DNA of 32,542 nt from an uncultured Mycoplasmatota bacterium (GTDB taxonomy: Bacteria > Bacillota_I > Bacilli_A > Mycoplasmatales > Mycoplasmoidaceae). Below are positions 20,870 to 25,075 of this stretch, piece by piece (position 1 is the stretch's first letter; each line of letters starts with the position of its first letter). The notes beneath the pieces are model-generated. The model saw only the letters and a program-made list of their open reading frames with translations. It made no database searches and was not told where the DNA came from. The translations under genes were made by a program, and so were the position numbers. The DNA lies in assembly GCA_949517355.1 (NCBI GenBank), contig CATDIL010000006.1, positions 1-32,542 of the forward strand. Direction: 5' to 3'.

Positions 20870-21334
20870 ATGATTAAACCTGACAAACTAATACATGTTC
20901 ATTACAACAAACAAAATAGAATAATTTTTAGTCTAACATACACTTTAATTTTTTGTATTTTATTTGTTTTGATAATTGGTGCATCTATCATGTGTGCTAA
21001 AGGTGTACAATTTCCAAATAGTGGGAAAGATGATTTTGATCCATCACATAAAGGGTGATATGTATCAAACGATTTGTTATTCGGGTTTGGCATTGCTTTG
21101 TTTGTTTTAACATTGATATTAGGATTTTTTCTTTCATTTTATCTTGTTTACTTATTCAAAGCTAGTCAAGCTTTGTATTTCAATACAAAGAGATACAAAA
21201 ATAATGTTAAAAAATATGAAGGTGTTAATTTAACAAGATATTCAAAAAAACAACTTAAATGACTCTATAAACTTAAATACATTAATAAAAATGATTATCT
21301 TGTAACTAAAGCAAATTTTAAAAAGAAAAAATAA
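20870..21334 (+). CDS. Two-TM membrane protein with SHOCT-like tail
   Basis: A 154-residue protein starting 2 nt after the proS stop. Membrane segments are at about residues 20-44 (IIFSLTYTLIFCILFVLIIG) and 68-95 (LLFGFGIALFVLTLILGFF). Between them is a polar loop with KGVQFPNSGKDDFDPSHKGW. The basic C-terminal tail LTRYSKKQLKWLYKLKYINKNDY recalls SHOCT-type helical hairpins (oligomerisation modules). That resemblance is my inference. It precedes, by 1 nt, the degenerate GGDEF/EAL membrane protein, so they are likely co-translated. Function unknown. Confidence 0.75.
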
Positions 21335-21335
21335 A

Positions 21336-22859
21336 ATGGCTGATTTCATTAAAGTTTTTTTTGCTGTATCAACACTATCTATTTTATCATTATTAATATT
21401 TTTATTTTTAGTGTTTTATATAAAAAGTGTTTTTTTTCATACAATTGAAAGAAAAAAATATTTAATAATTAGTTTCAATTATTTAATTGGGATTATCTTT
21501 GGTGTTGTATTATCTTTAATTTTTGAATTAATTTTTAAGATTAAACCATATGATTCTGTTGGTAATAATCATGTATTGTTGAATGCAATATTTTTCATGT
21601 CCTGCACATTTGCTATTGCTTTTTGATACTCAAAAAGAACAGCAATCGGATATTGTTTTGGATGTTTAATAGCATGATTTATTTATTTAAAAACATGAAA
21701 TTGTGATGAAATGTTTGATCTTTTATACATCTTAATTATGTTTGCAATTTCTATAACGTTTGTTGGAACGTTTAAATCAAACAAACTTTACTATTTTGCT
21801 CCTTTAATTTCTGCGGCATTAATGTTGATTTTAATTTTATCAACTAAAAGTTATCGTGTTGATTGATTTCAATATGCAGTGTGAGCAATATTTATTGTTT
21901 TTGCTTATCTATGCATCTTAATTGGTAAATTAATTAGTCTACTATTTGATCAATTGAATGCAATTAGATCAAAAATTTATTATGAAAATACTTACTTTGT
22001 AAATCCTGTTTATGCCAAGGAATATTTCATTGATTTTATGAGTGAGAACAAAATCAAAGAAGGATATATTACAAAGATTGATTTAAGCAAGAATTCTATT
22101 GAAAATTTAGAACACGTGGTTAAAATTATTAAAGAAAATTTAGTTAGATTTAAACATATGTTTTTTAAAACTGATCCTTATAACTTCTTTGTTTTCATAG
22201 AAGCTACTAAAGATAAACGAGTTGATCAAACATTAACTTATATTGCTAAATTGTTGCACACTCAAAACATTGAAGTTGATTTCTTGATATCGATATACGG
22301 AATTCATTCGTGCATTTTTGATGAATTAGTCCAATATGCTAAATTAATGACAAAACTAGAAATTACAAATCAAGCATTTGTTTTTGAACCACAAATTTTA
22401 TATAAAGTTTCTAGCCAAGTGCAAAAATTTTATTTATTAAATAAGAACCTTCAATTAAATAGAATTAGCATTGATTTTACAAAAGATACAATAAATGAAA
22501 AACAAGTTTGTATTCCTCAAATTTCCTATCCAATCGATTTAAACGAGGATGTTTTAAAGAAAAATTACCCTGCTCAAATCAATGATATTTATAGACTAAT
22601 TTCTAATAACATTATTTATTCATATATTTATTCAAAATATCATGGAAATTATTTATTGGTTTTACCTTACCCAATTGAATATTTTGATTCTTCAGATTTT
22701 AAACCGTCCGAATTTGTTAGTTCATTTGTTAATAACTTCGGCAGACAAAACATAGAGAATGTTATCTTAACATTAGATTTAGAAAAAATAAACAATTTAA
22801 ATAGAGTTAATAACAATATTTCTGAATTAGAAAAATACGGAGTTAAAGTATATAGATAA
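21336..22859 (+). CDS. 7-TM protein with degenerate GGDEF- and EAL-like domains
   Basis: A 507-residue protein, one frame with TGA Trp at 21624 and later. Residues 1-205 hold about seven hydrophobic helices. From about 215 to 325 the layout follows a GGDEF domain: NTYFVNPVYAKEYFIDFM (DxLTGLxNR region), ITKIDLSKNSIE (the ID-D-FK strand), then KTDPYNFFVFIE at about 278-289 in place of R.GGDEF. From about 330 on it resembles the first half of an EAL domain: VFEPQILYK, LLVLPYPIEYF...FKPSEFVSSFV, NIENVILTLDLEKI and ISELEKYGVKV. The frame stops where DDFG would begin. The GGDEF and EAL residues are all missing, so cyclic-di-GMP catalysis is unlikely. Directly upstream of cdaM (19 bp gap). Confidence 0.72.
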
Positions 22860-22865
22860 TTAATA

Positions 22866-22871
22866 TATAAT
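22866..22871 (+). promoter_or_regulatory. Possible leaderless promoter of cdaM
   Basis: TATAAT ends 7 nt before the cdaM ATG, so a transcript from it would begin at or next to the start codon. It sits in the only gap between the 7-TM gene and cdaM. Confidence 0.4.
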
Positions 22872-22878
22872 TTTATAT

Positions 22879-23529
22879 ATGTCTACTGCAATCTTAGTTT
22901 TATTAATATTTGTTATTATCATCTTAACATGTGTATTGTTTTTACAATTTATTAATACTTTTTCTCATTTAGAAGCCCATTCTTTTTTTAAATATTTTAG
23001 AAAAAAGAAAGATGATAGTTTTGACAAAATGGTTTCATTTGCTAATAAACTGTCAAGTGCTCTATTAAAAATGTCAACAGACAAAGTAGGCGCATTAATC
23101 ATTATTGAAAAAAACCAAAGTTTGCAACAATACATTAATATTGGAAGTAAGATTGAATCTGAATTTTTACCAGAATTAATTTATACAATTTTTTACAACA
23201 AGAAATCTCCATTACATGATGGAGCAATAATTGTAAGAGACTGAAAAATTGTTTCAGTATCAAGCTATTTGCCTACAAGTAAAAGAATTGTAAATATTTC
23301 CTATGGAGCAAGACATCGTGCTGCATTTGGTATTACAGAAAAATTTGATTGCTTTGCCTTTGTTGTTAGTGAAACTACAGGTCAAATTACTGAAGTACAT
23401 TTAGATGAAGTTAATAAACTTTCAAATATTCCAGAAAAATTAACAAACCAAATTATTAAAATATTTACTACAGCTAATGCTGTTACTCCTCCACTTAATT
23501 CAAAGAAAGTAAAGAAAAATGGTAAATAA
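22879..23529 (+). CDS. cdaM: Diadenylate cyclase (CdaM-type)
   Basis: Makes c-di-AMP from two ATP. The product is 216 residues. One N-terminal membrane helix (about residues 4-26) is followed by a basic linker and the DisA_N (DAC) domain. Catalytic DGA is at 114-116 in SPLHDGAIIV, and RHR at 145-147 in GARHRAAFGI. The FVVSETTGQI strand also fits. The single helix, instead of three, matches the CdaM subtype described in M. pneumoniae (MPN244). The usual partner CdaR is not next to it. The last 11 nt overlap the cardiolipin synthase gene. Confidence 0.95.
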
Positions 23530-25075
23530 TAAACAAAGAATTTGAGGCTATACTTTTGCTGCTTTATTATTCATAGTAATCTTTGCAGGATTAGTAGCTT
23601 TAATTGTCTATGATTTTGATAATCCTGCTACCATATTTGGCACAATTTTAGCAATTCTTGTTATTGATTTCTTTTTTGCCGCTTACATCATGGCAAGTCA
23701 AAGATATACAATTATTAAATTGTGTTGAGTATTTGTTGTGTTAGCTTTTCCAATGATTGGAGTTATTATTTTTTTAATCTTTGGTACAACCCCATTCAAA
23801 AGAAAAGAATGAAATGAATATAACAAATTCCAAGCTCATTTTATTAAACATGAAAAATTTTATCCTAGAAATCAGTTGCCATTAACAACTGAAGAATACA
23901 ATGTATTCTCATATGTTAAAAATAATTCTTTTAGACCAATATATAAATGAAATAGTATTAAGATTATTGCAAGCAATTCTAATCTATATAAAGAATCAAT
24001 AAAGTTGTTACTTTCAGCTCAAGAACACATTCACATTCAAATGTACATTATTCATGATGGTTTTTGATGAAAGACTGTACAAAAAATTTTGATTGATAAA
24101 GCTAAGCAAGGTGTTAAAGTTAGAATTATTTATGACTGAGTCGGGTGTCTAAATAGACTTCCTAGAAAAGATATTAAGAATTTAAGAAAAAACGGAATAG
24201 AAATAGTAAGTTTTAATCCACATGGTATAAATGTCTTTAAAGGAAGCACAAACTATCGCTCCCACTGTAAGGCTATTATCGTTGATAATAAAAAAGCAAT
24301 TTTTGGTGGAAGTAATATAGGAGATGAATACTTATCTGTATCCAAAGATTACAACTATTTTTCAGATCTTAATTTCATGATCTCAGGAGAAATTGTTAAT
24401 AGTCTTAACTTATTGTTTTGTCAACATTATTGCTTTTTTTCTGAAATTAAAAAAGGGTCTAAAGAATTTGATGAAATATATAATAATTTAAATAAAATTT
24501 TAGTTCCTAAAAAAGCAACAAATACTACATGTTGTCAGTTAGTTGATTCTTCCCCTGAATATCAAGGTAAGTCTGTTAAAAATTCATTAGTAAATTTAAT
24601 TTTAAAAGCTAATAAATCAATTGACATTGTTTCTCCTTATTTTGTGCCAACAGAAGATGTCCTTGATGCTTTGATCATCGCTTCAAGAACTGGTATCAAG
24701 ATTAGAATAATATTTCCTGGTAAATGTGATGATAAAGCATTTACTAGAACTATTAATCGAAGTTATTATCAAAGATTACTAGATGCAAAAATTAAAATTT
24801 ATGAACATAATGGATTTATCCATTCAAAAGTATTAATTATTGACAATAAAATCATTTTTACTGGTAGTTTTAATTTAGATTACCGTTCATTATGAATTAA
24901 TTTTGAAAATGGTTTAATTATCAAAGATCTTAAATTAGCAAACAATCTTGATAAAACATTTAAATTTTATTTAAGTAATTCAATACCAATTGATAAAAAA
25001 ATAGCAGATAAATATTTTAATTTTTGACATAAAATTCAAATTAACTTAATGGAAATTTTCTATCCTCTTTTATAG
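23519..25075 (+). CDS. cls: Cardiolipin synthase (phospholipase D family)
   Basis: Joins two phosphatidylglycerol molecules into cardiolipin at the membrane. The product is 518 residues, the usual Cls length. Two to three N-terminal helices (about 9-32, 38-58, 65-88) and the spacer PFKRKEWNEY precede two PLD domains. HKD motif 1 is HCKAIIVD starting at His249, with IFGGSNIGDEYL. Motif 2 is HSKVLIID starting at His435, with FTGSFNLDYRS. It starts inside cdaM (11-nt overlap), which ties membrane lipid synthesis to c-di-AMP production at the translation level. Confidence 0.95.

Follow-up and report, generated by a model that had tools for sequence, protein, structure and literature searches.

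Several described proteins, among them LapD, MorA, DosP and PA0575, share the order membrane region, GGDEF domain, EAL domain. LapD has no catalytic activity and transmits its signal through a change of conformation; it has a periplasmic domain flanked by two transmembrane helices, together with a HAMP domain. Degenerate GGDEF domains also occur in c-di-AMP metabolism, as in GdpP (including that of M. bovis), a phosphodiesterase with DHH-DHHA1 domains. A different solution is represented by CdaR (YbbR), a membrane protein encoded next to a diadenylate cyclase, which has one transmembrane helix and extracellular YbbR domains and contacts the cyclase CdaA through transmembrane helices (PMC10243994). 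In the coral mollicute Ca. Oceanoplasma callogorgiae the EAL protein U1 is membrane-bound and top-transcribed, and a possible use of c-di-GMP has been inferred from it, a result described as strange given that mollicutes use c-di-AMP (2024; PMC11535214). In the papers on mollicute c-di-AMP that we consulted there is no mention of a CdaM-adjacent protein of the kind described below, which is not proof of absence.

The protein family described here has the same tandem folds as LapD, MorA, DosP and PA0575. Like LapD it is a dead GGDEF–EAL protein, but it carries seven membrane helices, and it differs from the tandem systems in being linked to a diadenylate cyclase, in occurring in an organism in which no c-di-GMP synthase was found and in the erosion of its EAL domain, which in the window protein is cut short. 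It resembles CdaR as a membrane protein encoded beside a diadenylate cyclase, yet shows no relation to CdaR in sequence or fold. With GdpP it would share the re-use of a degenerate GGDEF domain in c-di-AMP metabolism, although it has an EAL domain in place of DHH. U1 is likewise a membrane EAL protein in a mollicute, a likeness taken from its description only; the family offers another reading of mollicute EAL proteins such as U1, if U1 belongs to it.

The window, that is, the whole stretch of 32,542 nucleotides that was analysed, is one contig of a 636-kb mollicute assembly in which TGA is read as tryptophan. The features that concern us are as follows.

20870..21334, plus strand: 154-residue protein with two transmembrane helices, ending 1 nt before the 7TM gene; restricted to the window's subclade.
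21336..22859, plus strand: whole gene of the 7TM–pseudo-GGDEF–pseudo-EAL protein, 507 residues (open reading frame under table 4 with five TGA tryptophan codons; homologues; AlphaFold2).
21336..21950, plus strand: membrane part with seven predicted helices, residues 1–205; long helices span 2–220 in the model (AlphaFold2; hydropathy of relatives).
21951..22385, plus strand: degenerate GGDEF domain, residues about 206–350 (AlphaFold2, PDB fold matches, alignment with the YfiN GGDEF domain).
22173..22187, plus strand: DPYNF, residues 280–284, at the GGDEF position (alignment with DosC).
22290..22310, plus strand: SIYGIHS, residues 319–325, a family-specific near-invariant motif with Y and G at 98% weighted (family alignment).
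22386..22856, plus strand: degenerate EAL domain, residues 351–507, stopping right before the DDFG position (AlphaFold2, PDB fold matches, alignment; full-length homologues match Pfam EAL).
22879..23529, plus strand: cdaM, diadenylate cyclase with one transmembrane helix, 216 residues (Pfam DAC, NCBIfam CdaM).
23519..25075, plus strand: cls, cardiolipin synthase, whose first 11 nt overlap cdaM (profile matches); in the inferred ancestral operon it also follows mgtE.

The genes proS, that for the 154-residue protein, the 7TM gene, cdaM and cls look like one operon, and in a promoter scan around the window genes sites were no more numerous than in shuffled sequences. The product of cdaM matches Pfam DAC at 8e-34, and its best NCBIfam model is CdaM, at 207 bits, yet below the cut-off of 225 bits. 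The two-helix 154-residue protein, which sits between proS and the 7TM gene, has a weak AmaP-like match (0.0016, far below the cut-off).

AlphaFold2, run on an alignment of the window protein and 18 homologues (18 sequences), gave a model with a mean pLDDT of 78.5 and a pTM of 0.51, so that the relative placement of its domains is not trustworthy. Along the chain it shows seven long helices, then a GGDEF-type domain from about residue 224 to 349 and then an EAL-type domain from about 352 to 507. All 15 Foldseek matches below 0.001 in the PDB were GGDEF proteins or tandems of GGDEF and EAL, with MorA (4rnh, 9.8e-7), PA0575, LapD (6pwk) and DosP at the top, and the GGDEF half aligned with YfiN at a Z score of 14.0 (rmsd 2.6 over 135 residues), which places it in the GGDEF fold. 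For L132, a full-length homologue that belongs to another family, the model (pLDDT 82.7) matched GGDEF–EAL tandems at an E value of 3.7e-19 and single EAL domains with a TM score of about 0.75. The positively charged loops of the 7TM part suggest that its N-terminus lies outside and its C-terminus in the cytoplasm. Neither the Pfam scan nor the model showed a HAMP or periplasmic domain in the window protein, which has seven helices instead, and Pfam gave no match to DHH or YbbR. The preliminary description, made from the letters of the DNA, had read the protein as membrane helices, a GGDEF-like fold with DPYNF and a partial EAL-like fold cut before DDFG, free of DHH and YbbR motifs and 19 bp ahead of cdaM. 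The model, the PDB fold matches, the DosC/DosP alignment and Pfam bear this out; structure prediction, which might have returned an unrelated fold, gave GGDEF–EAL, and a genuine cdaM does begin after a gap of 19 nt.

On its own, the window protein gave nothing significant in sequence searches of Pfam, NCBIfam and the PDB, so that the earlier reading went beyond what routine annotation would yield; a PDB search with profile A1 was also without significant matches. The connection to the EAL family comes through full-length relatives in f5, which we take to be Spiroplasma, and in f7 and f8. These match Pfam EAL (PF00563) above its cut-off, at up to 2e-22, and the window protein aligns with them, so that its relation to EAL proteins is one of homology through intermediates, beyond a shared fold alone. 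EAL-like proteins of f4 and of genomes G111, G038 and G061 were considered as further members and rejected. The f4 protein is a different one of about 600 residues (L186:2897-4690, L188:3997-5781), with one or two transmembrane helices and a conserved gene cluster; it matches the EAL profile, though no diguanylate cyclase was found in f4.

In an alignment of 71 family members with E. coli DosC and DosP, DPYNF of the window protein falls exactly in the GGDEF column, and its end (LEKYGVKVYR) lies just short of the DDFG column. Not one of the 71 has a GG[DE]EF motif. The EAL glutamate, the asparagine, the EITE glutamate, the aspartate pair, the lysine, the AEGVE glutamate and the glutamine are gone in nearly all of them, although single residues around the EAL motif itself are uncertain because the alignment is gappy there; DDFG is intact in one member, a Spiroplasma protein. 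The family is thus an EAL homologue rather than a c-di-GMP phosphodiesterase. The C-terminal end of the EAL domain is eroded stepwise: it is whole in f5, f7 and f8, lacks the last strands in f1 and f11, and in members of the window's clade breaks off at the DDFG strand. Some positions are newly near-invariant, namely the pair Y321-G322 (in SIYGxHS), Y445, F455 and R420. The dN/dS of the window gene against its two nearest relatives is 0.13 and 0.19, and each of the three segments, including the truncated EAL domain, stays below 0.31. Such low values, together with the conservation, indicate a pseudo-enzyme maintained under purifying selection and not a decaying gene. The motif losses and the lack of a detected diguanylate cyclase in the order lend good support to the earlier proposal that a dead c-di-GMP enzyme gave rise to the protein.

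That survey covered 320 Mycoplasmatales genomes, in which no recognisable diguanylate cyclase was found, the sole GGDEF match over the cut-off being GdpP; c-di-GMP is therefore an unlikely ligand of the family. YbbR/CdaR was found in none of the 320, the window genome included. The window genome encodes a separate DHH-DHHA1 phosphodiesterase of 323 residues elsewhere, next to a thiI-like gene. With cdaM and this enzyme, and with neither a recognised c-di-GMP synthase nor YbbR, c-di-AMP can be made and degraded in this organism, and the usual partner of the cyclase is missing.

A single-sequence search, which reached five other genomes of the genus, gave the first impression of a genus-limited gene; the loci upstream of cdaM and a profile search overturned it. 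By profile the family is present in 90 of the 320 genomes, as a single copy in each and in 22 of 50 genera, and an EAL search added G244 and G245, which raises the count to at least 92. Outside the order, a sample of the class (other Bacilli) yielded no full-length relatives, only weak partial GGDEF/EAL matches. The family tree has long branches and weak deep forks but mostly tracks the taxonomic families, which indicates mainly vertical inheritance, and the family is apparently ancestral to Mycoplasmatales. It has been missed by annotation because Pfam does not recognise the highly diverged sequences of many genomes and because TGA tryptophan codons split the gene under the standard code.

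Forty-three genomes hold both the family gene and a diadenylate cyclase gene. In 31 of these, from 12 genera and four taxonomic families (f1, f7, f10 and f11), the former lies directly upstream of cdaM; 28 are measured same-strand pairs, and in G029, G117 and G267 this junction can be read at the ends of contigs. The gap in the 28 ranges from −14 to 119 nt, some of the reading frames overlapping. In two f8 genomes cdaM lies, on the same strand, about 3.3 kb beyond the family gene. The pair persists amid many different outer neighbours, and the cdaM-adjacent state is scattered across the family tree; the ancestral order is inferred to be secG-rnr-smpB-[family]-cdaM-mgtE-cls. Linkage to cdaM in relatives, which the preliminary description had named as a point on which its proposal could fail, is accordingly conserved. 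Two of its suggestions need correction, however. The protein is not special to "this lineage", given at least 92 genomes and its seemingly ancestral status in the order, and regulation of c-di-AMP synthesis cannot be all that it does, given the genomes that hold the family with no diadenylate cyclase gene detected.

These number about 49, so that a strict co-occurrence between the family and cdaM could be rejected; 41 belong to f5 (Spiroplasma and relatives) and eight to f1. In f5 and in the f1 groups g23 and g25 the family gene commonly lies directly upstream of mgtE. The protein must thus have some role independent of a diadenylate cyclase and is not solely a regulator of CdaM. Conversely, many cdaM-bearing mycoplasmas lack the family, so that CdaM does not need this protein in general.

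The predicted fold, the loss of catalytic residues, the conservation, the purifying selection and the repeated adjacency to cdaM, in an order with no detectable CdaR or diguanylate cyclases, make the family a strong candidate for a missing regulator of the c-di-AMP synthase of mycoplasmas. A GGDEF–EAL-type c-di-GMP enzyme would have become catalytically inactive at an early stage of mollicute evolution and been retained as a membrane sensor or scaffold. A cue from the envelope, from osmotic conditions or from ions would be sensed by its seven helices and relayed by the cytoplasmic pseudo-GGDEF and pseudo-EAL part. In c-di-AMP makers the main output would be control of the co-encoded, single-helix CdaM, probably by direct contact, and the protein would fill the place that CdaR/YbbR holds in Firmicutes. 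That such a pseudo-enzyme sensor or scaffold has the control of CdaM as its main role in c-di-AMP-producing members is, in our estimate, an even chance. Membrane sensing, contact with CdaM, the direction of regulation and the nature of the cue are steps that we infer; possible precedents for the mechanism are CdaR–CdaA for a co-encoded membrane partner, LapD for a dead GGDEF–EAL transducer and GdpP for a dead GGDEF domain in c-di-AMP turnover. If the proposed function is true, the family would plainly illustrate how a signalling domain can outlive its messenger and be re-used for another. It provides a definite candidate, spread over many genera, for the control of the mollicute synthase without CdaR. 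A bolder version, tentative and rather doubtful, is an order-wide exchange of messengers, with a dead c-di-GMP transducer rewired to c-di-AMP and its remodelled GGDEF/EAL surface binding CdaM, perhaps also c-di-AMP or MgtE, in a sensor–synthase–transporter module that replaces CdaR in wall-less bacteria. Because MgtE of B. subtilis is a c-di-AMP-binding protein (PMC8844918), such a module suggests itself naturally, although its sensor must also have something to do where the synthase is lacking.

The same property of MgtE also fits a rival reading. Placed before mgtE in genomes where no cyclase was detected, and within an inferred ancestral order family-cdaM-mgtE-cls, the protein might primarily be a sensor of Mg2+ homeostasis that acts on MgtE or on the state of the membrane, in which case a shared physiological task would account for the link to cdaM. 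We regard this as unlikely, since the family protein stays with cdaM in the window genome, where no MgtE was found (the assembly is about 90% complete), since in genus g1 its gene lies beside cdaM and apart from mgtE, and since one Spiroplasma group (L140-L143) has the gene with no adjoining mgtE. Adjacency to cdaM could itself in part be the inertia of an old operon, in which rnr, smpB, mgtE and cls, partly unrelated in function, have also been kept in many genomes. Inertia as the full account, with an unrelated membrane protein left beside cdaM by the slow decay of rnr-smpB-x-cdaM-mgtE-cls, seems improbable to us: the pair persists where all outer neighbours have changed (e.g., L044, L046, L050, L055 and L107), reading frames overlap or nearly overlap in other genomes, and the family is entirely absent from the seven g1 genomes in which a DHH-DHHA1 phosphodiesterase gene precedes cdaM.

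The remaining alternatives assign a ligand or a substrate to the EAL domain. LapD, a receptor whose GGDEF and EAL domains are both dead, is among the best fold matches, and with c-di-GMP an improbable ligand where diguanylate cyclases were not found, a remodelled EAL pocket might bind the c-di-AMP made by the neighbouring CdaM, the 7TM part serving as a LapD-like effector or feedback device. This we consider quite improbable, for the ligand-binding and metal residues of the EAL domain are lost, a large part of the barrel is absent in the window's clade, and Spiroplasma retains the protein without a cyclase gene. An active phosphodiesterase, whether for c-di-GMP, as suggested for the coral-mollicute EAL protein, or for c-di-AMP, would fit the EAL ancestry and the above-cut-off Pfam matches in Spiroplasma, but it is hardly credible when catalytic and metal residues are gone in essentially all 71 members, no c-di-GMP synthase was found in the order and a DHH-DHHA1 protein already covers c-di-AMP hydrolysis.

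Other arrangements around cdaM were also seen. In part of the window's genus (L048, L056, L060 and relatives) cdaM directly follows the DHH-DHHA1 phosphodiesterase gene, beside thiI, so that synthase and hydrolase share one operon and sometimes overlap. Genome G116 has two tandem cdaM copies after the 7TM gene (L133:4342-5601). In f7 genomes without the 7TM protein (L068, L071, L073, L076), a protein of 100–136 residues with one C-terminal transmembrane helix is encoded directly before cdaM, at a gap of 1–9 nt in the three that were measured; it may represent a second kind of membrane partner of CdaM, unrelated to the 7TM family.
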